Source of the DNA: Notolepis coatsorum | Taxonomy: Eukaryota; Chordata; Actinopteri; Aulopiformes; Paralepididae | Assembly: GCA_963971535.1 (NCBI GenBank) | Contig: OZ020589.1 | Coordinates: forward strand, 91,556,136 to 91,620,135 | DNA: 64,000 bases | Reading direction: 5' to 3' | Shown: piece by piece, positions 5,312 to 46,498 of the stretch | How positions within the stretch are numbered: position 1 is the first letter of the stretch | How the letters are laid out: each line of letters begins with the position of its first letter | Position numbers and translations under genes: made by a program | The notes under the pieces: generated by a model | What the model was told of the DNA's origin: nothing | The model's database searches: none | What the model saw: only the letters and a program-made list of their open reading frames with translations

Positions 5312-5407
5312 GCCGCCTCCTAATTAGTCCGCACCTAATTAGTTAAAAGGAAGACAGATTAATAGTCCAGTCAACTGCTCAATGTCTGTTGTGGGGAGTA
5401 GGGCAAT

Positions 5408-7972: not shown

Positions 7973-8290
7973 TACAACTCGTACACCTTACTGTAAATTG
8001 TACCTAAATTGTACCTCATCCCATTTCTGTTTTGCACTATATAGTACTGTACATTAGTACACTGCATAGTATTGTATATTATATGGTAACTCAGTTACGT
8101 CTATTCCGCATCGAACATTGTACATATGTCTATACCGAACACTGTGACCTCATTTTCTTCTTCTAAATTACATGCTATACTATGTTATTTGATACTATCT
8201 TGTCTAGCACAGTCTCTGGAGCGTAACAGTAAGAAGCATTTTGTATGAAAGTATTCTGTACTTCTGTATGACAACTATTAAAGAAACTTG
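7860..8290 (+). repeat. LINE-like 3' end lying between gag and pol
   Basis: The stretch looks unrelated to BEL/Pao coding sequence and to the LTRs. It resembles the AT-rich 3' untranslated end of a fish LINE, closing with attaaagaaacttgaact on the + strand. Near its left end the 15-mer tgtagcacccactcc occurs twice (7871 and 7925). I infer an insertion between the gag-like and pol-like parts; no clear TSD could be read and the LINE family is not identified. Confidence 0.5.
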
Positions 8291-11200
8291 AACTCTAATG
8301 TCCATAGCCTCTCGACGTGCTGTAAGAGGGTGGTGTCTTCTTCGTTTATCCTTGAGTGGAGGCAGCGAGTGGCTGTCGGTCGGTTGGAAGACCCGGAGAG
8401 GGGGCCTTGTAGTGTCCAACCCAGGCGGGTCTCGACCGCTGCTGGACAGCCTCTGGGCCCGATGTGGACCCGGTCCGTTGGGACGATGAGGTGTGCGTGG
8501 TCGGATCCTATGAGCAGGGTCGGGGTGGCGTCGTCGATGAGTGGTATAGGTAGTTGACGTAGGTGCACGTATTTTTCCATCAGCTTTGGGATGGGGTAGG
8601 TGTACTGTGACAGGCCTATGTCGTGGCTGGTGAAGGCGTTAGTAATGCTATACTGCTTCTCGGGCTGCCCGACCGCTGCTATCGTGAATGAGACATTTTC
8701 ACCCTTTATGGTCTTCAGGTCTCTTCTAATGGTACGGATTGTCATTGTTTCTTCGCTCCCCCGCAGACCCAGCCGAGCTGCGGCGGATGCGAGGAGGAGA
8801 GTCTTTTCTGACCCATCGTCTAGGACGGCGTAAGTGTCCATGACCTTGTCCTCGTAGCTTAATATCACTCGGACCACCTTCAAGAGCACTCGGGAGCTCC
8901 CGCTCTTCGCAGGGTCTATGTACATGACGTTCACTCTCGAGCTGCTTGGGGGTACGGGTTTCTTCTCGTTGCGGTCGTGTAGGACCTCCAAGTGGGCGCC
9001 GTCGCACTTGCTGCATTTCTTCTTTAAACGGCACTCAGCTGCCATATGGCTGCGCGCGCAGCGGAAGCAGCGGCGGTTGGCTTTGATCCACTGACTCACC
9101 TCGTCAGCGGTCAGCTTCTTGAAAGTGTCACATTGAGACAGCCAATGTTCCTTTTCACAGTACTGGCATACAATCTTCCACTTCCCCTTGGTCGGCGGGG
9201 TGCTGTGGTTCTTGTGCTGCGGCACTGACTCGGCCTGGTGCATAACGGTCACTGACCGGCGGTTATCGTTGGACCTCCGAGGTCCATCTCTTGGGCTAGA
9301 TCCACTCCACACGAATGTGTCCAGTCGTAGGCTGCTAACTTCCCTTGCGAGGAAAGCGGCCAGGTCTAGGAGGGATGGCTCGGGGCCGTCGGGATCACGG
9401 TGGTCTCTCTGCCGCCGAAAACGCTCTTGGCGGGCTGGAGGGAGCTTCTCCAGTATTCGCTCCACATTAGAATTTGCATACAGTTCATATCTCCCCTTCT
9501 CCTTTTGGGACCCCAGCATCCCTACTAGGGATTGTACCTTGATAGAGAGGTCATCCAGTGCTCTATTGTCTTTGGCTGGGGGGAGGCGGTCGATATCCCG
9601 TATTTCTTGGATCACGTAATCCCATATGCGTCCATAACGCTGGTCGAGGGCCACTAGAGCCGCGGGGTATGGGGTGCTTGAGTTGGAATATGCCAGCGCT
9701 ATGTTATGCGCTCTGGGCACCTTGAGATGCTTGAGGAGGATGGCATATTTGTACGACTCGTCGGGGACGTCGGACATCATAGTCTCCAAACACATGCGTA
9801 ATTCCGTGTACTGTGCTCTGTCCTCGCGCGTAAAGTCTGGGAACGTCGGTGTGCCAAGGTATGATGCCATGGATGGCTGGCACATTGGTGAGCGTAGGGG
9901 AAGAGGCCTCCTGGGCGAGTCTCCCCGTACGTGTGGTCGTGGGTTAGTACTTGGTGGGTACCAGAGGCCGGGTCCCCAGGTGCTGTTCCTCGGTGCTGAC
10001 TGTACGTCAAACTCACCCGTGAGTTGAGTCGGGGGTTTGTAGTGCAGTGACTCGGGGCTGAAGTCGGGGCTGTACTGGGCCTCCTGGTCCAGAGTACGTT
10101 GCTGCTGGTGGGCTTGACATTCCTCCTCTTCCTCTTCTAGGTCCTGGAGTCTTCTAGTCAGTCTCTCGGCGACGTAGGCCGGTTCTTCCCGTTGGCTGGG
10201 TCTCGTATGGACCGGTCGGGGAGGGGGGTCGGAGACGTAGACAGGTTCCTCCTGTTGGCCGGGTCCCGGGTCGCTTTGTCGGGTAGGGGAAGGTGCCCTA
10301 GATCCTTGTCGTGATGATCTCCGGGAGCTCCGTGCGGAGAGAGGGGGTGTCGCCCTGGCAATCAATTGTTCTATCATCTGCGCCTGCAGCCGGTCGCGCT
10401 CTGCTTCGCGCTGGGCATTGGCGGCGTCGCGCTGTGCATTGGCGCGGTCTCGTTCGATGTTCTCTTCCGTCTGAAGGCGCCTCTCCTCCAGTCTTATGCG
10501 GTCGTCCTCACTCCTTTGTTGCGCCTGGAAGCGCTCTCGTTCGGTTGCAGAGTGTTTGCGCTCACTAAGGGCTTGCGCTTGGAGTTGCGCGTGAAGGCGC
10601 TCTCGTTCCGCTGCAGAGTGTTCGCGCTCGCTTACTTGTTGCGCCTGGAGGCGCTCTCGTTGTTCGCGCTCGCTCATCTGTTGAGCCTGGAGGCGCTCTC
10701 GTTCCATGGCAGAGTGTTCGCGCTCACTTAATTGTTGCGCCCGGAGGCGCTCTCGTTCCACGGCAGAGTGTTCGCGCTCACTTAATTGTTGCGCCCGGAG
10801 GCGCTCTCGTTCCACGGCAGAGTGTTCGCGCTCACTAAGGGCTTGCGCTTGGAGTTGCGCGTGGAGGCGCTCTCTTTCCGTGGCGGAGTGTTCGCGCTCA
10901 CTAAGCGTCTTTGCTTGAAGCCGGTCGCGTTCGGTGGAGGCTGTCAGTGTGGCGATCAAGGCTTGCGCCAGTATCTGGTCCGCCTCGCTGGGGGATGACA
11001 CTGACGGAGGTGATCGGGTGCTGACAGGGCTTGTTGGAGATCTGTTCTCATGGCGCGCTCCGAGGTCTATCTCCTGGGCGCGGTTCTCTTCTCTTGGTTG
11101 TGTGTCGGGTTCTATCCCTGGAGCGCTTTCTTTATCCTGGAGCGCTCCGGGGTCTATCCCGGTGACGCTGTCTGGAGGTATAGTCATGTCATGTCCCACC

Positions 11201-11442
11201 TGGTCCCCCCCGTGAGCTGAGTCAGTTTCGTTTGAACCCACTGGGGTCTCTACTGGCAGGGTCGCCAAGTCGATAGGATTGGACATGCTTAGACTATCCG
11301 CTTTATCCGTATTTAACGTCTGTTTAGATAAGCTAGGGGGTAGAACGAAAGCGAATTCCTCCAGATATGGAGGTGGCTGACGTTTGCGCTGCGGGCGTTC
11401 TAGCTTAGGAGAGCCGCTTGGGGAGTGTTCACCGCTGGCCAT
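8278..11442 (-). CDS. BEL/Pao gag with protease-like end
   Basis: The 1054-residue frame starts at ATG (MASGEHSPSGSPKL), 41 bases inside the primer-binding site. The N-terminal third carries a Glu/Arg-rich coiled-coil repeat, variants of LSEREHSAVERERLRAQQ repeated about ten times (roughly residues 165-330). A gag-like core follows (TPTFPDFTREDRAQYTEL, VERILEKLPPARQERF). Zinc knuckles come next (CQYCEKEHWLSQC, CFRCARSHMAAEC, CSKCDGAH). The C-terminal part has YAVLDDGSEKTLL, matching the retropepsin-like protease of this family. Gag packages element RNA into particles and the protease would process it. The repeat makes this gag unusually long. Confidence 0.88.
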   Translation of the reverse strand: MASGEHSPSGSPKLERPQRKRQPPPYLEEFAFVLPPSLSKQTLNTDKADSLSMSNPIDLATLPVETPVGSNETDSAHGGDQVGHDMTIPPDSVTGIDPGALQDKESAPGIEPDTQPREENRAQEIDLGARHENRSPTSPVSTRSPPSVSSPSEADQILAQALIATLTASTERDRLQAKTLSEREHSATERERLHAQLQAQALSEREHSAVERERLRAQQLSEREHSAVERERLRAQQLSEREHSAMERERLQAQQMSEREQRERLQAQQVSEREHSAAERERLHAQLQAQALSERKHSATERERFQAQQRSEDDRIRLEERRLQTEENIERDRANAQRDAANAQREAERDRLQAQMIEQLIARATPPLSARSSRRSSRQGSRAPSPTRQSDPGPGQQEEPVYVSDPPPRPVHTRPSQREEPAYVAERLTRRLQDLEEEEEECQAHQQQRTLDQEAQYSPDFSPESLHYKPPTQLTGEFDVQSAPRNSTWGPGLWYPPSTNPRPHVRGDSPRRPLPLRSPMCQPSMASYLGTPTFPDFTREDRAQYTELRMCLETMMSDVPDESYKYAILLKHLKVPRAHNIALAYSNSSTPYPAALVALDQRYGRIWDYVIQEIRDIDRLPPAKDNRALDDLSIKVQSLVGMLGSQKEKGRYELYANSNVERILEKLPPARQERFRRQRDHRDPDGPEPSLLDLAAFLAREVSSLRLDTFVWSGSSPRDGPRRSNDNRRSVTVMHQAESVPQHKNHSTPPTKGKWKIVCQYCEKEHWLSQCDTFKKLTADEVSQWIKANRRCFRCARSHMAAECRLKKKCSKCDGAHLEVLHDRNEKKPVPPSSSRVNVMYIDPAKSGSSRVLLKVVRVILSYEDKVMDTYAVLDDGSEKTLLLASAAARLGLRGSEETMTIRTIRRDLKTIKGENVSFTIAAVGQPEKQYSITNAFTSHDIGLSQYTYPIPKLMEKYVHLRQLPIPLIDDATPTLLIGSDHAHLIVPTDRVHIGPRGCPAAVETRLGWTLQGPLSGSSNRPTATRCLHSRINEEDTTLLQHVERLWTLEFKFL
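10500..10950 (-). repeat. Coiled-coil-coding tandem repeat in gag
   Basis: Repeats of about 54-60 bp encode the heptad-like block LSEREHSAVERERLRAQQ and its variants (QAQALSEREHS, QMSEREQ). Similar spacing across neighbouring units suggests expansion by unequal exchange or slippage. Long Glu/Arg helices probably support multimerisation of Gag; this is inference. Confidence 0.75.
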
Positions 11443-11482
11443 GGTTAATATTAATATTATATTAAATATTACACCGATACCC

Positions 11483-11499
11483 TCCGGCTCGACGGACCA
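11483..11499 (-). promoter_or_regulatory. Primer-binding site, complementary to tRNA-Tyr
   Basis: On the + strand the 17-mer tccggctcgacggacca lies two bases inside the 5' LTR end. As I recall vertebrate tRNA-Tyr, its 3' end reads TCCGGCTCGAAGGACCA, so this differs at one position. It would prime minus-strand synthesis. The position right next to the LTR supports the LTR boundary at 11502. Confidence 0.7.
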
Positions 11500-11501
11500 A
11501 T

Positions 11502-12073
11502 TGTAACTGAGGGGTTACAAAACCCTGACTGTATTAAAGATTGTGATAGATTAAACCACTGCTAGTTATGTACTTTAATTACTGGCCAAACAGTACATCA
11601 AATATAGATGGTGAACACCCACAAGAACACGGCATTGACACAGAATTACTATTGGAGGGTAATTTATTATTATTAGGCAACGTTAGGTTACAGAATGAGA
11701 ATTAGGGTCGCGCTTGTATGGCGAAGAATATACGTAAAGTCAGTCAAGAGCATAAGTCACTAAGAATAGCAGGAATCCTACGATGGGTCTAAGCTGACGC
11801 CACCTGTTGTATAGTAGCAATTATATAGGGCAACACCGGTACCAACTGGAGACATGGGTTCCCTCCGGGGTGTAAGGCCTGGAGGGTAGAGGAATGTTCG
11901 GGTACTCCGTCTGATTCAATGGGGAATAAAGAGACTCCAGGTACAGGAGTCGGTGCTTGTACTCCCTTGATCAGCAGCAAAAGCAATAGTTGTAATCCAA
12001 GATGCTCGACAGCATTGACGACAGCTAGCCAGCCCCGTCCACGAGGCGGGCCCGAGTGGTAATCCTCACGAGG
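11502..12073 (-). repeat. 5' LTR of BEL/Pao, first part
   Basis: It matches 4008-4579 of the 3' LTR with few changes. It is cut by the PLE at the 13-14-bp target taatcctcacgagg (12060-12073) and resumes after that target is repeated at 17848-17861. Confidence 0.88.
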
Positions 12074-12290
12074 TGTCAAGTTAGACCGCGCTCTCAAGAT
12101 ACGACACTGGGTGCTGAAATCCCATTAAGTATTATATAAAAGAAGCAGTGAAGCCAGACCAGCACTCTCAGGTTCAAAATTTAATGGCAGCCTGAAACAA
12201 ACATGTTTCGGAAATATGTATTCCTTCTTCAGTGTTATAGCTTGCAATGGACTTGCAGTCAAGATAATGGTTATATACACACACGTGGTT
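12074..12290 (-). repeat. PLE terminal repeat, left copy
   Basis: The same sequence recurs in the same orientation at 15853-16061, and in inverted orientation (lacking its outer 63 bases) at about 17698-17847. This is the pseudo-LTR arrangement of Penelope elements. It holds the possible hammerhead core described at 17744-17777. Confidence 0.85.
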
Positions 12291-12647
12291 AATTACACAC
12301 AGGTGGTTAATGATTTGGCAGGAAATGACATCACAGCGCAGGTGTGCCTGAGTCTATTGGTCCTCAATGACAAAAGAAAAGACCTATCAAAATAGAGTCT
12401 GTTAGTAAATACAAATTATACAAATATACCATGTATAAAAGACATATAAAAAGACATAAAAAACACAAAAGCAAAAGCAAAAATTGCATTACATTACCAT
12501 ACCAGAAACTTGCTATGTAACATGCCCATAGTTTATAGGGCTAATTTAGCCCCTATACTTTTTTCTTTTTTCTTTTAAGCATCAAAGGATAAACATACCT
12601 CTTGGAGGAAACAACCACTTGGATTAAACCATATAGATAAAAGGTAC

Positions 12648-14993
12648 TTAAAGGAAACAGGTTAAAACGTTCTCTTCATTCATTCCTCTAGGTTCTATGC
12701 AATCAAACAGGTGGATATAATAACATTCCCGTTGTAACAGTAACTTATGTCTGTCTCCCCCTCTCGCGGGCCTGTGGACTAACTCAAGTCCCATATATCT
12801 GAGATCGTTAACGGTATGTTTACACCTGGAAAAGTGTCTAGCTACTGACGACTTTATATCTGAATTTCTCACTGAACACTTATGTTCACTGATTCTTGTT
12901 TTAAAGGCTCTGGTTGTCTTCCCCACATAAGAAAAATCACACAGGCATTTTAGTAGATACACCAGATTGGCTGAATTACACGTGATACGCCCTTTAACAG
13001 GTATTTTTTTGTTCGTTTTCGGGTGCGTGTAAAATTTCTCTTTGATCATGCCTTGACACTGTACACAGGCTTGACATGGAAAATTTCCATCAGGGATATT
13101 AGACAAAAAATGTGTAGGTTTCCTTACGGGCAAGTCGGTTTTAACTAATAGGTTGGATAAATTCGCTTGTCTTTTATAAAAGTAATTAGGCGAATGTTGA
13201 AACGCTGTCCCTATTATTGGATCCGACTGTAGAATATGCCAATATTTATTGACAATGCTCCGTATGCCTTTCGTAATGGGGCTAAAAGTGGACACGAAAG
13301 ATACTTTGTCTGTGTTTTCTTTTTTCTTTTTGGGGATAAACAACGAGGCCCTATCAATCAGCTTGGTTTTATTCAGGGCTTTACGTGTCAAATCGACACT
13401 ATAGCCTCTGTCATGAAAACTGCTTCTTAGAACTTCTGCTTGTGCAGTAAATCTATCTTCAGTGTCGCAAATTCTCCTATAACGGAGTATTTGGCTGAAA
13501 GGTAGACTATTTTTCAAGGCAGGAGTGTGGTAACTGGAATAATGTAAGAATGAGTTACGGTCTGTCTCCTTTTTGAAGACCTCTGTATGTAAAGAAATAC
13601 CATCCGGGGCTTTCTTGATCAAAACATCTAGGAAAGGTAAAGTATGTATATCAGACTTTAATGTAAACTTTATAGTTTCTCTGCAGGTGTTCAAGTACTC
13701 AAGGAAGGCATCAAGATCAGACGATGTACCAGACCAAATAAAGAACATATCATCGATATATCTCATATAGGATTTGACGAATTTCTCAAACGGGTTATTA
13801 TTAAAAATGTGGTCAGACTCATACTTGGACATGTACAGATTGGCTAGGTTCACAGCGGCTGGGGAGCCCATGCTGAGGCCTCTGTTCTGCAAGTAGTATT
13901 TATCTTGGAATCTAAAATAATTCCGAGTTAGTACTAGGTCGGCTAGATTAACTAGCGCTTCTGTGGAGGGGAGTAATTCCTCTCTCGAGTTTAGATAAAA
14001 ACTCAGTGCGTCCAGCGCGTCAGCATGTGGAATGCTGGGGTATAAACTGACTACGTCTATGGTAACTAATAAGTCCAAGGGACTAATATTACAGGTCGAA
14101 AGTTTGTTCAAAAATGTAGTAGTGTCTTTCAAATAACCACGCTGAGAAGAGGCCAAATCCTTAATATGCGAGTCAACAAATTGCGAGATTTTTTCTGTAG
14201 CGGAACCTATACCAGAGACGATCGGTCGACCAGGAGGGTTAACCAGATCCTTATGGATCTTCGGTAAAGTGTAAATAATAGGCGTAACTGGGTACTCTAC
14301 GAACATAAACTTAAATTCATTTTCTGTAATCACCTCTGCCAATCTAAGGCTTTTAAGGGTAGTCTTAATTTCCGCGGAAAATTTAAATACTGGGTCTGTA
14401 TTTAAAAGGGTATAAACCTCAATATCGTTCAATTGTCTATTGATCTCGGATACATACAAACTCTTATTTTGGAGCACGATTCCGGAACCTTTATCGGCTT
14501 TCCTAAAAATTAAATCATCGTTCTTAATAAGATCCTTGAGAGCTGCTGACTCTGATTCTAATAAATTAGGGTAAAGGTGGGCTTTGTGACTGGTTTCACA
14601 TAATTTAAGGACATCAAGTTGTACCAATCTGCAGAATGTCTCCACTGAGGGTGGGTTGAGATGAGGGGTAAACACGCTACGTGGTTTAAATACCTTTCTT
14701 TTGGAGCAAATGGTATCCGGCTCTGTTTCTGGCCTTTCATCAACATCATCACATATAGGCACATTTTCATTAGTAACATATTGAGTTCTCTTATCCAAAC
14801 CTCTGGCATAAAATGCTCTTAACTTAATGTTTCTAAAAAACTTAAATAACTCAACTTTGGTGGTAAAGGAGTCCGCTTTCCGAGCCGGGACAAACGATAA
14901 ACCTTTAGAGAGGATATTGTGATGTGGGTCGCTCAAATGTGCGTCAGAAATGTTTACTATATTAGAATCAATGTTAGAATCAATGTTTATCAC
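12648..14993 (-). CDS. PLE ORF2: reverse transcriptase plus GIY-YIG nuclease
   Basis: The 781-residue frame carries a Penelope-type reverse transcriptase: VTPIIYTLPKIHKD, then DVVSLYPSIPHADAL with a catalytic Asp, then NRGLSMGSPAAVNLANLY, then the active-site block YMRYIDDMFFIW. The C-terminal 100 residues hold a GIY-YIG endonuclease: LVYLLKC and FSYVGKT form the GIY-YIG core, followed by Arg-bearing KTRISEH and a late Glu (LLQRECYYIH). A Cys cluster (CQACVQC) sits between them. RT copies the RNA at a nick made by the nuclease. The first listed codon is GTG overlapping the TGA of ORF1, so the real start is uncertain; a later ATG or translation coupled to ORF1 is possible. The frame looks whole. 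Confidence 0.92.
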   Translation of the reverse strand: MINIDSNIDSNIVNISDAHLSDPHHNILSKGLSFVPARKADSFTTKVELFKFFRNIKLRAFYARGLDKRTQYVTNENVPICDDVDERPETEPDTICSKRKVFKPRSVFTPHLNPPSVETFCRLVQLDVLKLCETSHKAHLYPNLLESESAALKDLIKNDDLIFRKADKGSGIVLQNKSLYVSEINRQLNDIEVYTLLNTDPVFKFSAEIKTTLKSLRLAEVITENEFKFMFVEYPVTPIIYTLPKIHKDLVNPPGRPIVSGIGSATEKISQFVDSHIKDLASSQRGYLKDTTTFLNKLSTCNISPLDLLVTIDVVSLYPSIPHADALDALSFYLNSREELLPSTEALVNLADLVLTRNYFRFQDKYYLQNRGLSMGSPAAVNLANLYMSKYESDHIFNNNPFEKFVKSYMRYIDDMFFIWSGTSSDLDAFLEYLNTCRETIKFTLKSDIHTLPFLDVLIKKAPDGISLHTEVFKKETDRNSFLHYSSYHTPALKNSLPFSQILRYRRICDTEDRFTAQAEVLRSSFHDRGYSVDLTRKALNKTKLIDRASLFIPKKKKENTDKVSFVSTFSPITKGIRSIVNKYWHILQSDPIIGTAFQHSPNYFYKRQANLSNLLVKTDLPVRKPTHFLSNIPDGNFPCQACVQCQGMIKEKFYTHPKTNKKIPVKGRITCNSANLVYLLKCLCDFSYVGKTTRAFKTRISEHKCSVRNSDIKSSVARHFSRCKHTVNDLRYMGLELVHRPARGGDRHKLLLQRECYYIHLFDCIEPRGMNEENVLTCFL

Positions 14994-15757
14994 CGGAACC
15001 GTGGATTTCTTTCTTTGGCTCCTCCTCGTCTTCCTACGGGATCCCTCGCCGGTCTGGGAGGGAGAGGAGCGTCCTGCTCTCCGCGAAAATTCGACTGGCT
15101 TCGAAGAGGGTATCTGCCTTGAGAGGGCGTCTCGTCTGAGCTCGCCGCTGTGGAGGAAGAATCAGAATGCCGTTGTTGGTCTCTAGGCTGCCAATTCTGC
15201 CTACGGTTCCTGGAGTGGGGATGATGGAGCCATGGATACACCATTTGCGTTGCGTAGTCTTGTTCATCTCTTCTCCTCTTAGCTCTCTTGTGCAGTTCGA
15301 TGTCCAATTTGTACTTGTCGAGCTTCTGGTGTACTGACTCGAGCATTTCGGTCAGCTGGTCAGGCGTTAAAACAGTTTTGATTTCAGCCTCTAACGAGGA
15401 AAGTTCAGCTCTGACCTTGGCTAATTTGGAGCCTTCGTTATCAATAATCAAGAGCATTAGATCCATGGAGCACTTGTCAAGGATCGAACACCACTTGTCA
15501 CAAAATTCAGGAGATTCTCTTCCTAGTGTGGGTTCCTTGGAGATACGCAGGCCCCTCGGAATGATGTCATCCTGCCAGTATTTGGTAAGGGTCGTACCAT
15601 GGAGCAGGGTACGTGTCTCTCTCTGCCGTAGTCTGGAAAGAGACAAGGCCAGTGCCTCTCTTCCTTTGGGTGGGGGTGCCGAACTCTCTGGCACTGGAAA
15701 TAAGCGACATATTCTGTCGCTATCCACTTTGGAATAAGCGTAGCCTTTGTTCTCCAT
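14990..15757 (-). CDS. PLE ORF1, coiled-coil and basic protein
   Basis: The 255-residue frame starts MENKGYAYSKVDSDRICRLF. It has a predicted helical middle (LRQRETRTLLHGTTL; SKLAKVRAELSSLEAEIKTV; LTEMLESVHQKLDKYKLDIE) and a strongly basic C-terminal part (HKRAKRRRDEQ, HPHSRNRRQNWQPR, GRRGGAKERNPR). It reads in the same direction as ORF2, and its stop overlaps the first codon of that frame. An RNA-binding or multimerising role beside the RT is plausible by analogy with other retroelements; I do not recognise a named domain. Some Penelope families carry such an upstream frame. Confidence 0.7.
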   Translation of the reverse strand: MENKGYAYSKVDSDRICRLFPVPESSAPPPKGREALALSLSRLRQRETRTLLHGTTLTKYWQDDIIPRGLRISKEPTLGRESPEFCDKWCSILDKCSMDLMLLIIDNEGSKLAKVRAELSSLEAEIKTVLTPDQLTEMLESVHQKLDKYKLDIELHKRAKRRRDEQDYATQMVYPWLHHPHSRNRRQNWQPRDQQRHSDSSSTAASSDETPSQGRYPLRSQSNFRGEQDAPLPPRPARDPVGRRGGAKERNPRFR

Positions 15758-15852
15758 TTTTCAGCGTAAGCTGCTAAATATGTAAAAAAAGAGAAAAAAC
15801 TAAGGATTGGAGCCGCTGGTCTCAAAAGCTACCAGGGTAGCTATGAATCAAA

Positions 15853-16061
15853 TGTCAAGTTAGACCGCGCTCTCAAGATACGACACTGGGTGCTGAAATC
15901 CCATTAAGTATTATATAAAAGAAGCAGTGAAGCCAGACCAGCACTCTCAGGTTCAAAATTTAATGGCAGCCTGAAACAAACATGTTTCGGAAATATGTAT
16001 TCCTTCTTCAGTGTTATAGCTTGCAATGGACTTGCAGTCAAGATAATGGTTATATACACAC
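15853..16061 (-). repeat. PLE terminal repeat, middle copy
   Basis: It is nearly identical to 12074-12288 and in the same orientation, lying upstream of ORF1 of the - strand copy. At about 16061 it joins the inverted partial copy; only a few bases (ac) are shared at the join, so the junction looks like end joining or template switching. Confidence 0.85.
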
Positions 16062-17340
16062 TCGGAATTATTTTAGATTCCAAGATAAATACTACTTGCA
16101 GAACAGAGGCCTCAGCATGGGCTCCCCAGCCGCTGTGAACCTAGCCAATCTGTACATGTCCAAGTATGAGTCTGACCACATTTTTAATAATAACCCGTTT
16201 GAGAAATTCGTCAAATCCTATATGAGATATATCGATGATATGTTCTTTATTTGGTCTGGTACATCGTCTGATCTTGATGCCTTCCTTGAGTACTTGAACA
16301 CCTGCAGAGAAACTATAAAGTTTACATTAAAGTCTGATATACATACTTTACCTTTCCTAGATGTTTTGATCAAGAAAGCCCCGGATGGTATTTCTTTACA
16401 TACAGAGGTCTTCAAAAAGGAGACAGACCGTAACTCATTCTTACATTATTCCAGTTACCACACTCCTGCCTTGAAAAATAGTCTACCTTTCAGCCAAATA
16501 CTCCGTTATAGGAGAATTTGCGACACTGAAGATAGATTTACTGCACAAGCAGAAGTTCTAAGAAGCAGTTTTCATGACAGAGGCTATAGTGTCGATTTGA
16601 CACGTAAAGCCCTGAATAAAACCAAGCTGATTGATAGGGCCTCGTTGTTTATCCCCAAAAAGAAAAAAGAAAACACAGACAAAGTATCTTTCGTGTCCAC
16701 TTTTAGCCCCATTACGAAAGGCATACGGAGCATTGTCAATAAATATTGGCATATTCTACAGTCGGATCCAATAATAGGGACAGCGTTTCAACATTCGCCT
16801 AATTACTTTTATAAAAGACAAGCGAATTTATCCAACCTATTAGTTAAAACCGACTTGCCCGTAAGGAAACCTACACATTTTTTGTCTAATATCCCTGATG
16901 GAAATTTTCCATGTCAAGCCTGTGTACAGTGTCAAGGCATGATCAAAGAGAAATTTTACACGCACCCGAAAACGAACAAAAAAATACCTGTTAAAGGGCG
17001 TATCACGTGTAATTCAGCCAATCTGGTGTATCTACTAAAATGCCCGTGTGATTTTTCTTATGTGGGGAAGACAACCAGAGCCTTTAAAACAAGAATCAGT
17101 GAACATAAGTGTTCAGTGAGAAATTCAGATATAAAGTCGTCAGTAGCTAGACACTTTTCCAGGTGTAAACATACCGTTAACGATCTCAGATATATGGGAC
17201 TTGAGTTAGTCCACAGGCCCGCGAGAGGGGGAGACAGACATAAGTTACTGTTACAACGGGAATGTTATTATATCCACCTGTTTGATTGCATAGAACCTAG
17301 AGGAATGAATGAAGAGAACGTTTTAACCTGTTTCCTTTAA
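16062..17340 (+). CDS. PLE ORF2, 5'-truncated inverted copy
   Basis: The frame joins at TRNYFRFQDKYYLQNRGLSM and covers the second half of the reverse transcriptase (YIDD near 16230) through the GIY-YIG nuclease to the same stop. By eye only one residue differs from the - strand copy over about 420 residues (KCPCDF here, KCLCDF there). The upstream part of the open frame (from 15982) reads through terminal-repeat sequence and is not RT. It lacks the N-terminal half and so is unlikely to be active alone. Confidence 0.9.
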
Positions 17341-17743
17341 GTACCTTTTATCTATATGGTTTAATCCAAGTGGTTGTTTCCTCCAAGAGGTATGTTTATC
17401 CTTTGATGCTTAAAAGAAAAAAGAAAAAAGTATAGGGGCTAAATTAGCCCTATAAACTATGGGCATGTTACATAGCAAGTTTCTGGTATGGTAATGTAAT
17501 GCAATTTTTGCTTTTGCTTTTGTGTTTTTTATGTCTTTTTATATGTCTTTTATACATGGTATATTTGTATAATTTGTATTTACTAACAGACTCTATTTTG
17601 ATAGGTCTTTTCTTTTGTCATTGAGGACCAATAGACTCAGGCACACCTGCGCTGTGATGTCATTTCCTGCCAAATTAATTGTAGTGTAATTAACCACGTG
17701 TGTGTATATAACCATTATCTTGACTGCAAGTCCATTGCAAGCT

Positions 17744-17777
17744 ATAACACTGAAGAAGGAATACATATTTCCGAAAC
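17744..17777 (+). ncRNA. Possible hammerhead ribozyme core in PLE terminal repeat
   Basis: In the sense of the PLE, the bases CTGAAGA are followed by a short stem (GGAA with TTCC around tacata) and then GAAAC. This is the order of a hammerhead core: CUGANGA, stem II, GAAA. Terminal repeats of PLEs are known to carry hammerhead motifs. The same sequence lies inverted near 12210-12240 and 15990-16020. I could not convincingly fold stems I and III by eye, so cleavage activity is unproven. Confidence 0.4.
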
Positions 17778-17861
17778 ATGTTTGTTTCAGGCTGCCATTA
17801 AATTTTGAACCTGAGAGTGCTGGTCTGGCTTCACTGCTTCTTTTATATAATCCTCACGAGG

Positions 17862-18899
17862 TTAAATCCCAAACGATAGTGGAAATCAACGGTGCTCTTC
17901 TCCGGTAGTCACGTCCCAAATCAATATAATCCAACCAGGAATGGTTCTGCAATCGCCGGCGCCGATTCTCCTGTGTACATGTCCAACGGTTCTCGCCTAG
18001 GACTCCTCAGGTGTGGGCGACGTATTTAGGCCACACAGCCTGGATAAGTGCACTAGCTAAAGACACGACGAACCGGTGGGTAATGCTACACAAGGAAGAA
18101 CTGTGGCTGCACGATATACAATAAATGATCGACTATTGACTTCACATTAGATGAAATGAATGAATGAAAACTTTATTTAACAGATTGCAGAATGGGTACA
18201 ATACAGTACGGCTCAATACATACAATTGTTAAGGGGATGCAGACCTGAGAAAGACGTTTGTCTTGTTTCCATCAGGGTCCCCCATTTTCAATTCATATAG
18301 ACATATATGACATACATGACATACAGATAGTCAGTACTGCTACATCTATACATTTATGACATACCAGATTTGCAAATACAGTACTGTTTGTGATACAGAA
18401 GGAGTCAAGAAAAGGGAGTATATACATTTGACGTCGAAACTGTACACTGTACAGATTAAGTCGAACTCAACGTTACTTCATTAAACTCTGACACTTTAAC
18501 ATTCTATTCGCACGCGGTTCTCAATGCTCTATTTAGACGCAAGGTTGCTCACTTCACTGCACGTTGACTCGTGGTGAAGGTGGGTAAGGTTTAGGTAAAG
18601 TACTGCCGTTTACACCTGCGCCGTATTTATACTTAAGTGAATATCTAGTCCCAACCTCAGTCCTTGTCTTGTATTACTACGCAGACTCTGGGCATGTTCT
18701 GACATGCGTGCAGTTGTCTTTGAACTTGCCGTTGGGGGCTTGCGCGTTGGCGCCTGGGGGCGCTGTCCAATAGGAGAGCGAATATTACTCTGGTCTGTAC
18801 GCAGGTAAAGGGATATTCCGTGTATATATATAAATAATATACAAAGTATATCAAACGATACATATATATATATTCAGTTTAATCTGGCCATTCACAACA
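17862..18899 (-). repeat. 5' LTR of BEL/Pao, remaining part
   Basis: It continues the LTR after the PLE, matching 4580-5311 except for a 300-bp LINE tail at 18153-18452. It ends ttcacaaca, the TGTTGT terminus in the element's sense. Confidence 0.88.
18153..18452 (-). mobile_element. CATT-tailed LINE 3' end inserted in the LTR
   Basis: Compared with the intact LTR at 4868-4890, an extra 300 bp sits between two copies of agat (18149-18152, 18453-18456). On the - strand it ends with repeated CATT and carries the 3' untranslated blocks seen at 47640-47933. A short TSD and a simple tail at one end are the marks of a 5'-truncated LINE insertion. Confidence 0.85.
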
Positions 18900-19735: not shown

Positions 19736-21137
19736 ATGTTACAGCTTAACAGGTTAAAAGGCTCTCTGTAAAAACGTTTGCTTGATAAATGAGGCCCATT
19801 ATCACCAAACCAACTTCATAAACAAACCACCCTTCTCTCAATCCTGACATTTCTGACATACAGGTATACTGTTGTAAATTCCCCACTATTTTTCATACCG
19901 TGTATTATTATTTCTATTCAGGCATTACTTTGGACAGCCCAGGGTATTCTTGTTCCTAGTGAGGCATCTCTCCAGACAGCCCAAGGGTCCTTAGTCTGTT
20001 AATTAAATACAGGTGGTGAATTTCCAGAATGACCTGCACAACACAGACATCTTCCTGCTGAAGACCAGCCAGGCGGATTGCTTCCCAGAGGAACTTAAGT
20101 GCCTCCGAGCTGGTGGATGCTCTTGTCACAAGGACACCTCCTGTAACTGAGGGGTACAATTCCCTGACTGTATTAAAGAGTATGATATATTAAACCACTA
20201 CTAGTTATGTACTTTAATTACTGGCCATACAGTACATGAATATATATGGTGAACACCCACACAAGAATACGGCATTGACACATAAAGTACTATTTAGAGG
20301 GTATTTATTATTATTAAGCAACGTTAGGTTACAGATTGAGAATTAGGCTCGCGCTTGTATGGCGAAGAACATACGTAAAGTAAGTCAAGAGCGTAAGTCA
20401 ATGAGAATAGTATGAATACTAGGATGGGTCTAAACTGACGCCACCTGTGGTATAGCAATTACATAGGGCACACTAGTACCAGCTGGAGACACTGGGGGGT
20501 TCCCTCCGGGTGTAAGGCCGGCCTGGGTAGAGGAATGTTCGGGTACAAAGTCTGGGTCAACGAGGAATAACGAGGCCCCAGATACAGGAGCCAGTGCATG
20601 TACTCCCTTGATCAGTAGACAAAGCAACAGCTATAATCCAGTATGCTCGACAGCATGGAAGACAGCTAGCCAGCCTCTTCCTAGAGGCGGGCTCGAGTGA
20701 TGATCCTCACGGGGGGTAGATCCCAAACGACAGTGGGGTCGACGGTTCTCTGCTCCAGCAGTCACGGTCCCAAAGCAATATAATCCAACCAGAAATGGTT
20801 CTGCAGTCGCCGGTGTAGGTTCTCTGGTGTACATATCCAACGGTTCTCGTCTAGGACTCCTCGGGTGGGGGCACGAGTTTAGGCCGCCCAGCCTGGATAA
20901 GTGCACTAGCTATATACACGACGAACCGGTGGCAATGCTGGTCACTGAAGAACTGTAGCCGCACGATACACTATAAATGATAGACTATTACTTCACATTA
21001 GAATAAGTCGAACTCGACGTTACTGCGTTAAACTCTGACACTTTAGCAATCTATTCGCACGCGGTTCTCAAGGCTCTATTTAGAGGCAAAGTTGCTCACT
21101 TCACTGCACGTTGTCTCGTGGGGAAGGCTTTACTAGT

Positions 21138-22150
21138 TGAAACGGAGGGCTAGGGCCTCCACGGGTTGCGTTTAATAGAGCTGGCGGACACTATGGCGTT
21201 TTAACTCCTATTAGAGAGTCACAGAGGCGTGCTGCAGGTATTGTCTTTTATTGGGAACAGAAAGGTGTGTGTGGTTGGGGTATTTCCATGTGTGTGGTTG
21301 TCTACAGAAGAATACAATACAGTATACATTAATAACACAGTAGTGATACAATACAGTATACATTAGTAGACACAGTAGTGGTGTACATAAACATAATGTC
21401 CATTAGTAGTATATTGCAACTAGTAACTAGGCCACTAGGGCATTCACTTAACCAGAGTTAATATATATAACCTACATAACCTATGCAGGGAATTACTCCT
21501 TCAGTGCATGTAAACGGTATAGGTAGGTGGACTGTAAACCAGGTGTAAAGATACATTCTATTCACTAGAAGTAGTGAGTGAGTTATATAGCCTAAACTAG
21601 CTCACGTGCGGCTAAGCTAACCACGCAGCATCACTTGCAGGCAACGTAGGTTGGCTAACGTGTAGCTAAGCTAACGGCGCGGTGTTTCAATAACAGAGGG
21701 AATGACGTCGACGGGAATAGAACAGCGGAGACACACTATAAAGGTAGAGTAAGCTGAATGAATGGATTAGGCAGGACTAAGCACAGGTAATGTACTCACG
21801 TTCATTGACGCACACGTTATCCCAAAGGGACGGACATTACTGCTACAGCAGCCGACCAACAGGCAGCAACACAGAGAATAGCTCGTGCACGTTAAAGGGG
21901 AGGGACTCTTAAAGGGCAGGTACAGAACGAAGTAGTCGTCAGGCAGTAACACGGAGACCGGCTTGCTCACTTAAAGGGAGAGAACTCTTAATGGTCAGTA
22001 ACGTTATCAGAAGACTAGAGTGCAACACTTGATCGGGGCACATCACACTGAACGATTACACAGGCATGAATCAATTACCCTTTCCTGTCAACAACAACAT
22101 ATGAAGGGCTATTACAGAACAAAGTAGTCTTATTAGCAGGCTTTCCTACA
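21138..22150 (-). repeat. 3' LTR of the short BEL/Pao derivative
   Basis: About 99.5% identical by eye to 25051-26066. In the element's sense it follows the run ttttgggtgcggc, which fits a polypurine tract. Confidence 0.88.
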
Positions 22151-22200
22151 CAGCCGCACCCAAAAGTCTACTTAGACCTTTTGAACTAAACAGGAAAGTC

Positions 22201-24942
22201 TCAGTGGTCCTCTGTATCCGGGAGACTCGGGAGCTGCACCGGCCGGGACACAGGGCGCAGGTATATTCTGTCCTTCACCTGGACAGCTGCGGTGCGGGTG
22301 CGCCCGTTAGTTCCAGGGTACGTGACCTTCCCTGGCTGCCAGAGTGCCCGAGGAAGCCGCGGGTCAACGATGAGGGCCACCTGGCCGAGCGGCTTTCTTG
22401 CCATCCTTCCTCCACTTCTGCCTCTCCGGAGCCCTATCTTGGTGTGAAATGGCCCAAAATAGTCTACTCTGGTGGAATAGAATGGGGGCTTGTAGAGACG
22501 CGGGCGACAGGGCGGAAGGGCGGCCATTTTAGGCATGTCAGGCTTTGCTCGCCTGGCGTGACGTTCTCGGCAGGTGTGCTGATGCTTGCGGATTGCTCCT
22601 CTTCCATGTAGGACCCAGAGTCGGGATCGAAGATCAACGAGTACCCTCTCAGGCCCGGGGTGGAGAAGAGTTTGATCATAATCTTGGATGATCAGCTTTG
22701 TCAGGGGGTGATGTGGATCCAAGACGATTGGGTGAATGTCATCCATCTCCAAGTTCTCGGCCCCGTGCGGCCTACCGCCTACTCTGAGGAGACAGGTAGC
22801 CTTGTCGTACTCTGGAGATAGAGTGGCGAAACGACTGTCTGGGGGAAGAGGTCGGTCAGACTTGAGGGCCTTGATCTCCTCTGGGAATGAGTCCAGCTGG
22901 GTTTGTTTAAGGAGGACCTTCTCAGCGTTGAGGAAGTCGGCCGCTTCATAAGGCTGATCAGTGGTCTGGGCATCAGCCGCACCGTGAAGGGACCTGACTG
23001 TTGCTTGGACGAGATCTTTCCATGAAGAGAGGTCTTCAAAGGCAGGGAGCGGAGGACTGGGAGAGGTCCTAGGTTGAGTACTAGGTTGAGTACTAGGTTG
23101 AGTACTAGGCTGAGTACTAGGCTGAGTACTAGGTTGAGTACTAGGCTGAGTACTGGGTTGAGTACTAGGTTGAGTACTAGGTTGAGTACTGGGCTGGGTG
23201 CTAGGCTGAGTACTAGGTTGAGTACTAGGTTGAGTACTGGGTTGAGTACTAGGTTGAGTACTAGGTTGAGTACTGGGCTGGGTGCTAGGCTGAGTACTAG
23301 GTTGAGTACTAGGTTGAGTACTAGGTTGAGTACTAGGTTGAGTACTGGGCTGAGTACTAGGCTGGGTGCTAGGTTGAGTACTAGGCTGAGTACTAGGTTG
23401 AGTACTAGGCTGAGTACTGGGCTGAGTACTAGGTTGAGTACTAGGCTGAGTACTAGGCTGGGTGCTAGGCTGAGTACTAGGTTGAGTACTAGGCTGGGTG
23501 CTAGGTTGAGTACTAGGCTGAGTACTAGGTTGAGTACTAGGCTGGGTGCTAGGCTGAGTACTAGGTTGAGTACTAGGCTGGGTGCTAGGTTGAGTACTAG
23601 GTTGAGTACTAGGCTGAGTACTAGGTTGAGTACTAGGTTGAGTACTAGGTTGAGTACTAGGTTGGGTACTGAGTTGAGTACTAGGTTGGGTACTGAGTTG
23701 AGTACTGAGTTGAGTACTGGGTTGAGTACTAGGTTGGGTACTGAGTTGAGTACTAGGTTGGGTACTGAGTTGAGTACTAGGTTGGGTACTGAGTTGAGTA
23801 CTGAGTTGAGTACTAGGTTGGGTACTGAGTTGAGTACTAGGTTGGGTACTGAGTTGAGTACTAGGTTGGGTACTGAGTTGAGTACTGAGTTGAGTACTGG
23901 GTTGAGTACTAGGTTGGGTACTGAGTTGAGTACTAGGTTGGGTACTGAGTTGAGTACTAGGTTGGGTACTGAGTTGAGTACTGAGTTGAGTACTGGGTTG
24001 AGTACTAGGTTGGGTACTGAGTTGAGTACTAGGTTGGGTACTGAGTTGAGTACTAGGTTGGGTACTGAGTTGAGTACTAGGGATGGTCGCACCATAGGTA
24101 GGACTCTGGGTACTGTGAGTAGCTACAGGGGGCCCTGTGTGAGATTGTAGGTTGCTCAAGTGAACCAGGCATGTTGGGAGCTGGGTTGGCGACACAGGGG
24201 GAGCGGCAGGGCGAGGCGTCGCCTGTGCTGGGTGGTGTATCACTGGAGTGATGGCGGCTGGATTAGCCGGCAGGGGATGCATGTGCTGTGGTACGGTAGG
24301 AAGGGCTAGAGGCACAGGTGCCACTACGTGGTGCTGTTGTCCAGGTGGTGGATAGGTCGGCTCAGATGTTGCTGCACGTACAAGAGCCCTCGTCTTTGAC
24401 TCTTGAAGTGAGGTGACCAGTTTGGCTACTTGAAGTTCCTTCTCCTTCTTCTTAAGCCGCCTCTGCCTGTCCAGGCGTTTAACGATAGCTTCCCGTGCGT
24501 CTTGTGCTTCCTGCTCTATGCGTTGTAAACGTTTACACTCCAGGTTGGCGTCGTAGTCTTCTTGTACCTGGCGCTGTAGCTCCTCAAGCTCCATGGAGTG
24601 GATGTACTCCTGGAGGATTGCTTCCTGGGCTGGTGAGAGAGCGTGTTGTCGGTGTACACTCCCAGATGAACGATGGGAGCCAACACCTGACCTTATGGTG
24701 GGTCTAGGAATTGACAGACGTGAGGACCTACTACCTTCATACGGGGCCCTTGTGGTACTCGCCGGGTATGAACGATGGGAGCCGACATCTGACCTTATGG
24801 TGGGTCTAGGAATTGACTGATCCGAGTACTGACTGATCCGAGTACTGACTGATCCGAGTACTGGCTGATCCGAGTACTGACTGATCAGAGTACTGACTGA
24901 TCCGAGTACTGAGTTCAGGTTCATGACCCACCCTGAGGTCAC
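22201..24942 (-). CDS. Long frame: coiled coil, STQP repeat, integrase pieces
   Basis: The 913-residue frame has four parts. The first has Tyr/Ser-rich repeats (SVSTRISQYSDQ) and a charged helix (MELEELQRQVQEDYDANLEC, RQRRLKKKEKELQVAKL), gag-like in style. The second is Pro/Thr-rich. The third, about residues 280-625, repeats S-T-Q-P or S-T-Q-L some 84 times. The fourth resembles BEL/Pao pol around the integrase start (DSFPEEIKALK, LLRVGGR, HPIVLDPHHPLTKLIIQDY, LLHPGPERVLVDLRSRLWVL) and ends with an integrase-tail segment (ALWQPGKVTYPGTNGRTRT). There is no RT. That one frame runs unbroken through all parts suggests the protein, perhaps Gag-like, is still kept. What it does is unknown. Confidence 0.75.
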   Translation of the reverse strand: MTSGWVMNLNSVLGSVSTLISQYSDQPVLGSVSTRISQYSDQSIPRPTIRSDVGSHRSYPASTTRAPYEGSRSSRLSIPRPTIRSGVGSHRSSGSVHRQHALSPAQEAILQEYIHSMELEELQRQVQEDYDANLECKRLQRIEQEAQDAREAIVKRLDRQRRLKKKEKELQVAKLVTSLQESKTRALVRAATSEPTYPPPGQQHHVVAPVPLALPTVPQHMHPLPANPAAITPVIHHPAQATPRPAAPPVSPTQLPTCLVHLSNLQSHTGPPVATHSTQSPTYGATIPSTQLSTQPSTQLSTQPSTQLSTQPSTQPSTQLSTQLSTQPSTQLSTQPSTQLSTQPSTQPSTQLSTQLSTQPSTQLSTQPSTQLSTQPSTQLSTQLSTQPSTQLSTQPSTQLSTQPSTQPSTQLSTQLSTQPSTQLSTQPSTQPSTQPSTQPSTQPSTQPSTQPSTQPSTQPSTQPSTQPSTQPSTQPSTQPSTQPSTQPSTQPSTQPSTQPSTQPSTQPSTQPSTQPSTQPSTQPSTQPSTQPSTQPSTQPSTQPSTQPSTQPSTQPSTQPSTQPSTQPSTQPSTQPSTQPSTQPSTQPSTQPSTQPSTQPSTQPSTQPSTQPSTQPSTQPSTQPRTSPSPPLPAFEDLSSWKDLVQATVRSLHGAADAQTTDQPYEAADFLNAEKVLLKQTQLDSFPEEIKALKSDRPLPPDSRFATLSPEYDKATCLLRVGGRPHGAENLEMDDIHPIVLDPHHPLTKLIIQDYDQTLLHPGPERVLVDLRSRLWVLHGRGAIRKHQHTCRERHARRAKPDMPKMAALPPCRPRLYKPPFYSTRVDYFGPFHTKIGLRRGRSGGRMARKPLGQVALIVDPRLPRALWQPGKVTYPGTNGRTRTAAVQVKDRIYLRPVSRPVQLPSLPDTEDH
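23071..24079. repeat. 12-bp minisatellite, about 84 units
   Basis: The unit is gagtactaggtt and close variants on the + strand. The right half (about 23640-24079) alternates gttgggtactga with gttgagtactag, giving 24- and 36-bp higher-order periods. The left half is nearer a plain 12-bp array. Twelve is a multiple of three, so any change in unit number keeps the frame. The array is open in at least three frames, so the antisense frames there are not evidence of genes. Confidence 0.95.
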
Positions 24943-25032
24943 GTAGGTGGCTTGGTAGGTGGCGCTCTCTCTGTGGGTGAGCGGTGGTCTCTGTGGTGTC
25001 CTGGTCTGCCATAGCGTCTTGGAGGAGCTCTA

Positions 25033-25050
25033 TCCGGCTTCGAAGGACCA
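25033..25050 (-). promoter_or_regulatory. Primer-binding site like tRNA-Tyr, short BEL/Pao
   Basis: The + strand reads tccggcttcgaaggacca directly against the LTR end at 25051. It differs from the tRNA-Tyr 3' end by one extra T. It fixes the 5' LTR on the right and the element on the - strand. Confidence 0.7.
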
Positions 25051-26066
25051 TGAAACGGAGGGCTAGGGCCTCCACGGGTTGCGTTTAATAGAGCTGGCGG
25101 ACACTATGGCGTTGTAACTCCTATTAGAGAGTCACAGAGGCGTGCTGCAGGTATTGTCTTTTATTGGGAACAGAAAGGTGTGTGTGGTTGGGGTATTTCC
25201 ATGTGTGTGGTTGTCTACAGAAGAATACAATACAGTATACATTAATAACACAGTAGTGATACAATACAGTATACATTAGTAGACACAGTAGTGGTGTACA
25301 TAAACATAATGTCCATTAGTAGTATATTGCAACTAGTAACTAGGCCACTAGGGCATTCACTTAACCAGAGTTAATATATATAACCTACATCCCTACCTAT
25401 GCAGGGAATTACTCCTTCAGTGCATGTAAACGGTATAGGTAGGTGGACTGTAAACCAGGTGTAAAGATACATTCTATTCACTAGAAGTAGTGAGTGAGTT
25501 ATATAGCCTAAACTAGCTCACGTGCGGCTAAGCTAACCACGCAGCATCACTTGCAGGCAACGTAGGTTGGCTAACGTGTAGCTAAGCTAACGGCGCGGTG
25601 TTTCAATAACAGAGGGAATGACGTCGACGGGAATAGAACAGCGGAGACACACTATAAAGGTAGAGTAAGCTGAATGAATGGATTAGGCAGGACTAAGCAC
25701 AGGTAATGTACTCACGTTCATTGACGCACACGTTATCCCAAAGGGACGGACATTACTGCTACAGCAGCCGACCATCAGGCAGCAACACAGAGAATAGCTT
25801 GTGCACGTTAAAGGGGAGGGACTCTTAAAGGGCAGGTACAGAACGAAGTAGTCGTCAGGCAGTAACACGGAGACCGGCTTGCTCACTTAAAGGGAGAGAA
25901 CTCTTAATGGTCAGTAACGTTATCAGAAGACTAGAGTGCAACACTTGATCGGGGCACATCACACTGAACGATTACACAGGCATGAATCAATTACCCTTTC
26001 CTGTCAACAACAACATATGAAGGGCTATTACAGAACAAAGTAGTCTTATTAGCAGGCTTTCCTACA
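25051..26066 (-). repeat. 5' LTR of the short BEL/Pao derivative
   Basis: Partner of 21138-22150. The few differences include single-base changes and one 3-bp difference near 25390. The high match points to a recent insertion. Confidence 0.88.
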
Positions 26067-26412
26067 TAGTAATGAACGAATTGCTGCTGTTTCCACCTGC
26101 GCCGTATTTATACGTAAGGTGAATTATCTAGTGCCAACCTCAGTTCTGTCTCGTATTACTGCGCAGACTCTGGACATGTTGAGACATGCCCGGAGTTGCC
26201 TTTGAACTTGCCGTTGGGGGCTTGGTCGTTGGCGCCTAGGGGTCGCTGTCCAATAGGAGAGCGAATATTACTCTGGTTTGTACCCAGGTAAAGGGATATT
26301 CCGTGTATATATACAAATAATATACAAGGGATATCAAACGATATACAAATATTATACAAGGGATCTCAAGCAATAAATATATATATTCGGTTTAGTCTGA
26401 CCCTTTGTAACA

Positions 26413-26800
26413 CCTCCTGTTCCACTGACATCCACCCCATAGTTCTCGATCCTGGCCATGCCGTGACTAAACTCATCGAGGATGTAGATGCCCGCCTACT
26501 CCACCCAGGGCCCGATAGGGTCTTCGCAGAGATCAGGCACCAGTACTGGGTCCTGTGGAGAAGACGGGCCATCAAGCCTCATCAGAGGACCTGCACAGGA
26601 TGTAGGAAGTGGAAGCCGGTGGTTCCAATGATGGCAGACTTACCTCCTGCCCGTTTGCGGCCCCTTAAGCCGCCAGTATGTGTTGTCAGACATCGCGGAT
26701 CTGGACCCTGTGACACCAAACAGGTTGCTGATGGGGCGGCGGGACGCCTCCCTGCCACAAGTGTCCTACGCTCCCGACCCGACTGTGGCAAATGATGGCG
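26413..26800 (+). pseudogene. BEL/Pao pol remnant, integrase zinc-finger region
   Basis: The + strand gives PIVLDPGHAVTKLIEDV, then LLHPGPDRVFAEIRHQYWVL, then the Cys pair CTGCRKWK, as in the N-terminal zinc-binding part of BEL/Pao integrase. It continues the fragment near 20030-20136 (FLLKTSQADCFPEELK) across the solo LTR. It is a fossil piece of the older BEL/Pao; the rest of pol is not recognisable. Confidence 0.75.
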
Positions 26801-46151: not shown

Positions 46152-46498
46152 CTAGAGGAAAGGGGTGGGCACAGTTAATCATTTTAATAACAGGTCATGG
46201 GGATAGGTCACCGTGGTGTGGAGATGGCTGGTTTGAGCAGCTACACCTGCCCTGGGTCAAGCGAATCAGACCTGGGAGCAGGTGTGGCTGCACACCTGTT
46301 GCACATTGAAGTAATCAGTGTAGCACAGGTTAAATCAGCCATCCTCACACACACTGAGGAGATCCTTTGTCATCCATTTTGTGAATCCATTTGTTTAAAC
46401 AACATATTTGTTGGCAGACGGCTCGTGCTATCTTAACGTTAGCAAGCTAAGCATGCATAGCGTGACCTGTGTAACTTGTGCTCCGCTGGGAAAGACTG
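46152..46498 (-). other. Intron sequence of the zinc-finger gene, with hairpin
   Basis: The region upstream of the acceptor has no exon I can support. An inverted repeat (gcagctacacctgc at 46237-46250, gcaggtgtggctgc at 46278-46291) pairs at 13 of 14 positions around a 27-base loop. The polypyrimidine run before the acceptor is short (cccctttcctctag). Confidence 0.5.

Follow-up and report, generated by a model that had tools for sequence, protein, structure and literature searches.

Non-autonomous LTR elements with a kept open reading frame (ORF) are a known kind of element, described from endogenous retroviruses and from plants. The zebrafish elements BHIKHARI (Bik-1) and Bik-2/crestin are recent and non-autonomous, with one kept ORF and without pol (PMC10996621; PMC9341512), and chicken ENS-1 has been named as a non-autonomous variant of ENS-3 (PMC10996621). 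In plants, TR-GAG, TR-RT, TR-RT-RH, TR-RH, and TR-INT-RT elements each carry, between their two LTRs, a single ORF that derives from a larger element, and some TR-GAG elements are able to move (PMC9784723). The short BEL/Pao family that we describe here resembles Bik-1 and Bik-2/crestin in being a recent, non-autonomous fish element with one kept ORF and no pol; however, the latter are endogenous retroviruses whose ORF is a gag, whereas the short family has lost the capsid region. With TR-GAG and its kin it shares two LTRs flanking a single ORF of larger-element origin, but those are plant elements named after one kept protein, whereas the short family joins a gag N-terminus to integrase remnants via a 12-bp array. 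ENS-1 is likewise a non-autonomous LTR element and has a named product, ERNI, but it is retroviral and not BEL. With the terms used, neither a non-autonomous BEL/Pao family with a kept ORF nor a BEL form that lacks the capsid and has a repeat array at its deletion was found in the open-access literature searched.

The stretch of DNA analysed, hereafter the window, comprises 64,000 nucleotides from Notolepis coatsorum, and its positions 21138-26066 hold, on the minus strand, a single copy of this mobile family (Table 1). The initial annotation had read the locus as a young insertion with near-identical LTRs and a tagt target site duplication (TSD), as a shortened BEL/Pao derivative, and as a single frame running from a gag-like start through an 84-unit array to integrase-like ends without reverse transcriptase (RT) or RNase H, and on all of these points it was borne out. 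Across 1013 sites the two LTRs show 4 substitutions, in addition to one gap. The 913 codons are those of a mechanical ORF list; the long frame itself is without stops across 942 codons, and its first ATG is codon 7 of the listed ORF. Neither RT nor RNase H gave a Pfam match in this frame at E up to 0.1, and protease and integrase core likewise gave no Pfam match, so that the domains expected of an autonomous BEL/Pao element are missing; DUF5641 (20.6 bits, cut-off 23.1) and Integrase_H2C2 (14.9 bits, cut-off 25.5) both score below their Pfam cut-offs. We take the primer binding site to fit tRNA-Tyr. The MADQD ATG, which is the usual start in the family, does not share the phase of the long frame in the window copy because the length of the 16-bp repeat region differs, giving 370 bases to the core, which is not a multiple of three, and the short frame from this ATG ends before reaching the long one. 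For this reason the 913-residue product of the window copy itself is doubtful.

Table 1. Features of the short BEL/Pao element and its flanks, in window positions
Feature	Position	Strand	Basis or remark
TSD TAGT, left	21134..21137		sequence
3' LTR	21138..22150	-	4 substitutions relative to 5' LTR
Region before 3' LTR, with polypurine-like stretch	22151..22200	-	40 LTR-adjoining bases identical to L031
913-codon listed frame, GTG start	22201..24942	-	stop TGA at 22201-22203
DUF5641 remnant (BEL integrase C-terminal tail)	22243..22389	-	in frame in window subfamily
Integrase-core deletion junction, ~600 bp missing relative to L031	22408..22427	-	CT alignment to L031
Integrase N-terminal (H2C2-like) remnant, second cysteine lost	22564..22710	-	Pfam and alignment of copies
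Array, 84 x 12 bp (66 STQP, 18 STQL), at gag-to-RNase H deletion	23071..24078	-	unit count
Gag N-terminal core from autonomous relative; charged, then Pro-rich	24079..24642	-	alignment to relative
16-bp tandem repeats; length sets phase of MADQD start and long frame	24798..24925	-	sequence
Frame from MADQD ATG	24806..25012	-	stops before long frame in window copy
Primer binding site	25033..25050	-	shared with autonomous relative
5' LTR	25051..26066	-	comparison with 3' LTR
TSD TAGT, right	26067..26070		sequence

The genome searched comprises 3.42 Gb, and the copy counts are lower bounds: the best 40 of 629 first-look candidates were scored in the LTR search, the best 40 of 209 in the 3' interior search, and the best 40 of 202 in the 5' interior search. 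Twenty loci were fetched around LTR matches, of which 11 carry an element with the same short interior as the window copy, seven are solo LTRs with TSDs (L009, L014, L015, L016, L024, L025, and L028, with L014 and L015 having flanks in common), and two (L020 and L027) are partial or rearranged. The window copy together with L010-L013, L017-L019, L021-L023, and L026 forms batch 1 (n = 12), which was not selected by frame. BEL/Pao LTRs have TG...CA ends and TSDs of 4-6 bp. The short family conforms to this, all 11 batch 1 copies that could be tested having a TSD of 4-5 bp (12 rows read; L018 was excluded for its incomplete right LTR), each one different: TAGT, ATAA, ATGGT, ATGAT, AAGAG, AAGC, CTCTT, GTTAC, ATACT, CTATA, and ATTAT. 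Many copies with their own TSDs and one short interior are what is expected of a trans-mobilised family, and several such copies were also what the initial annotation had proposed to look for. Within copies the LTRs differ by 0-5 substitutions per ~1 kb in all 10 pairs compared (~0.5% or less), and across those ten copies LTR divergence reaches 4.2%. Copies are mosaics, as seen in L012, whose 5' core shows no difference from the window while its LTRs are 3.0% and its 3' core 2.4% away; such mosaicism would be expected from co-packaging of two RNAs and template switching in reverse transcription.

Some loci also bear marks of local duplication. The solo LTR L016 (C8) and the full copy L017 (C6) have the TSD AAGC and adjoining flank bases in common, and therefore one of them is probably a duplicated locus that has lost its interior by LTR recombination. 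At L020 and G000:C23:82027923-82076767, family LTRs are spaced mostly 7.4 kb apart, which looks like tandem segmental amplification, and at G000:C4304:28683-37944 and G000:C44:50230903-50237969 copies lie ~4-4.6 kb apart, possibly as LTR-interior-LTR-interior chains.

The source of the short family can be traced to an autonomous BEL relative in the same genome. A search with the 3'-interior protein gave, among the best 136 of 29054 candidates, matches at ~82% to residues 1-218 that lie in frames as long as 2182 codons, and the 5'-protein search returned three of those loci again, with 2182-codon frames. This family was read in pieces from three copies (L031, L032, L049, and L053). The LTR ends, primer site, and polypurine region of L031 and L032 are near-identical to those of the window copy, which has one base more in the primer site; LTR identity between relative and window is 76% over 875 aligned bases, the MADQD gag start is common to L031/L032 and the short family, and both ends of the window interior align to L031/L032. 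Pfam finds DUF1759 in L032 (27.6 bits, cut-off 25.4), H2C2 (29.9 bits, cut-off 25.5) and a complete DUF5641 (87.3 bits, cut-off 23.1) in L031, RVT_1 in L053 (40.5 bits, cut-off 29.6), and partial Peptidase_A17 in L049 and L053, so that the pieces together carry the DUF1759, Peptidase_A17, H2C2, and DUF5641 homology of a BEL gag-pol. The integrase core of L031 is placed by its position, Pfam listing no core domain there, and RNase H and protease of the relative were called by eye. The short family carries its array in place of the segment from gag GATI to the TSPSPPLPAVED stretch, and has thus lost capsid to RNase H, with the array bridging this main deletion and directly linking the gag N-terminus to the post-RNase H part; a second loss of ~600 bp removed the integrase core (CT 1-274 matches L031 1677-1959, and CT 255-907 matches L031 2555-3208). 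DUF1759 was not found by Pfam in the window frame or in L010, the gag part before it being kept, and the window frame does not have the gag domain as ORF by which TR-GAG elements are recognized. Because the interiors read share these deletion junctions where covered, the short family likely had one origin. Thus the two families are alike in LTR tips, primer site, polypurine region, gag start, and integrase ends, whereas the relative differs in its frames of up to 2182 codons, DUF1759 gag, RT, and longer integrase, and in having a short STQ array near the gag start where that of the short family bridges the main deletion. Its pieces L031, L032, L049, and L053 provide, within this genome, a candidate whose cis signals match, and judged by these sequences it is the likely helper.

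Other BEL-like elements were considered for the same roles. The element at 4008-18899, for which a similar primer site had suggested kinship, proved to be a distant relative only, with 44% amino acid identity to the short family and no LTR match; as it also has its integrase N-terminus joined directly to a DUF5641-like tail (~5498/5491), without integrase core, it was rejected as helper. It carries gag and RT-like ORFs, and two inverted, 99%-identical copies (12128-13928 and 16060-17854) inside it lie within ORFs that are Penelope-like by eye. L020, in the C23 LTR array, was rejected as an autonomous copy, its interior departing from the family after 348 bp and the stretch read having no integrase core, and the fragment 26410-26720 beside the element was rejected as parent, being part of another BEL derivative. 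This latter derivative (window 26410-26795 / L030) is itself repeated, among the best 40 of 185 first-look candidates, and by eye it fuses gag knuckles and a protease-like part to an integrase N-terminus with RT and integrase core mostly missing, which would make it another family that has lost its parts in a similar way. Genome-wide, DUF5641 gave 25124 first-look candidates, of which the best 150 were scored and several lie in frames of ~2000-2092 aa; in this genome, BEL/Pao elements thus seem to be highly numerous and to have been active recently. Elsewhere in the window, the zinc-finger ORF at 45094-46182 makes the genome look fish-like.

The long frame is a property of the family. Eleven of the 12 batch 1 copies have a single stop-free frame of 847-1157 codons spanning nearly the whole interior, the exception being L022 with an interior insertion. 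Among the matches listed with at least 94% amino acid identity, 27 of 31, window included, have open frames of 762-1170 aa, in a ranking by similarity to the intact protein (best 136 of 29054 candidates) that favours well-kept copies, and in which two pairs are neighbours that may not be independent; the exceptions are L050, which has a stop in its array, L051, whose array contains an insertion with Ns, L052, which has a frameshift as well as stops, and again L022. Sixteen further interiors (L033-L048), mostly picked because searches gave long frames, have 5' and 3' cores joined in one frame in 14 cases, L034 and L048 being the exceptions. Of the copies with both anchors, 14 of 25 have the MADQD start in phase, as do 9 of 12 in batch 1; the integrase tail is out of frame behind an earlier stop in the seven copies L039-L045, and in the window subfamily, L033/L036, L034, and L035 it is brought into frame via different indels. 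In 26 of 28 copies the H2C2 zinc motif lacks its second cysteine, so that the integrase-like part probably does not function as an integrase domain.

The clearest sign that the frame has been selected comes from indels. In batch 1 the interior cores show 5 indel events in 1152 columns and the LTRs 25 in 1036 columns, and of these 2 versus 19 are not multiples of three (Fisher p 7e-5; L022 excluded from the 3' core for its insertion), so that frame-breaking indels are about ten times less frequent inside the 12 copies than in their LTRs; both interior ones, of 1 and 8 bp, belong to L013, where they offset each other. Across all aligned copies (25 for the 5' core, with L034, L040, and L048 excluded for missing anchors, and 27 for the 3' core, with L022 excluded), nine of 13 gap intervals are multiples of three and the other four form two cancelling sets. 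Substitution tree length per site in batch 1 is 0.119 for the LTR, 0.096 for the 3' core, and 0.075 for the 5' core. Without selection 1.4 + 1.9 (~3.3) stops were expected in batch 1 and none was seen (P ~0.04; L013 and L022 excluded from the 3' core), and over all copies, a set biased toward long frames, ~10 were expected and none seen. The frame thus appears to be selected to stay open, and frame-shifted stretches are tolerated in L013 and in an N-core segment. Constraint on the amino acids is weak. In batch 1, N/S is 0.62 (20 N, 12 S, p 0.14) and 0.70 (25 N, 13 S, p 0.19), not significant by itself, and the C core over all copies gives 0.89 (p 0.34). The comparison of synonymous and non-synonymous change that the initial annotation had called for agrees with constraint in the shared variants of all aligned copies (N/S 0.62 and 0.64; pooled 62 N:37 S, p 0.018 versus neutral), in a set where most copies outside batch 1 were chosen for long frames; private variants are neutral at 67:25, and the shared-versus-private contrast is not significant (p 0.16; L013 excluded, 21 and 2 multi-change codon variants dropped). 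We therefore rejected N/S as the ground on which to argue selection, the signal being weak over all copies and not significant in batch 1.

The length of the array ranges from 57 to 133 units per copy in the 12 copies of batch 1, as does the number of Thr-Gln sites per copy (57-133). Among 1056 units counted in batch 1, after dropping units more than one residue from STQP/STQL, third codon positions are polymorphic in 4 of 4 (each 8-38%) and other positions in 1 of 8 (P/L; p 0.01), and common unit types stand at 3 N:7 S compared with 19 N:7 S for rare ones (p 0.026); over all copies, common types are 10 silent to 3 replacing and rare types 12 to 51 (p 1e-4). Since duplication spreads the units, and an STQ array is also present in the autonomous gag, this pattern may partly predate the deletion and be inherited from the autonomous gag.

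Given the copies, their TSDs and derivation, the shared cis signals, and the conserved frame, the account that we consider probable is a young non-autonomous BEL/Pao family, mobilised by a helper, whose frame is kept open because the product aids the copies that move. An ancestral element would have lost capsid to RNase H and the integrase core while keeping LTR tips, primer site, and polypurine region, and its copying and integration would be performed by the enzymes of the autonomous BEL family of the same genome. The gag-N / (STQP)n / integrase-remnant frame would then stay open in lineages that keep moving and be translated into a gag N-terminal part with a long Ser-Thr-Gln-Pro linker, which may join helper Gag particles or mark its own RNA for them, broken copies leaving fewer offspring. 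Of the two readings offered initially, we prefer, given the indel contrast, the one in which the protein would help the element. Most likely, what is made would be an accessory resembling gag. More specifically, Thr/Ser-Gln is the consensus of PIKK kinases, and one could picture a capsid-free protein whose hypervariable STQP array is the working part and takes the place of a capsid, either serving as a scaffold that binds RNA or Gag or interacting with DNA-damage kinases while the element integrates, a proposal that we regard as speculative and improbable.

A serious rival, though an unlikely one in our estimate, is selection for openness alone: if translation continues almost to the 3' end, the RNA would escape nonsense-mediated decay or be packaged better, so that any stop-free frame suffices. 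Strong frame conservation beside weak amino acid conservation and tolerated out-of-frame stretches would follow directly from this, as would the re-joining of the same C-terminal tail by different indels in several subfamilies and the loss of the zinc-motif cysteine; however, the silent bias of the array, both in its third positions and in its common unit types, argues for a peptide unless it was inherited, and the RNAs of the 11 of 25 copies out of phase with the usual ATG would face decay. The other initial reading, that amplification from few masters is too recent for the frame to have been broken, fits the closeness of the LTR pairs, the marginal stop test of batch 1, and N/S values not significantly below neutral, but it leaves unexplained why LTRs of the same copies have gathered 19 frame-breaking indels against two cancelling ones in the interiors, and relatives ~6-12% apart in the interior are still open-framed, though picked for that; we hold it to be distinctly unlikely. 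Many dominant-negative fragments keep ends without catalytic parts, and the kept gag and integrase ends would suit a product that interferes, limiting itself or poisoning the helper, instead of aiding; a copy making such a factor has no obvious advantage, and the idea is very improbable. That the window element is a private rearrangement of a single copy has practically no probability left, given 11 further batch 1 loci, ten with their own TSD, and the same junctions in the other interiors read.

Non-autonomous retroelements are often thought to need cis signals only. A family without capsid, RT, and integrase core, whose frame stays open while its LTRs gather indels, is a direct test case for whether remnants of this kind supply a product or simply an untroubled RNA, and its array offers a natural length series, from the shortest to the longest of 12 copies, within one genome.
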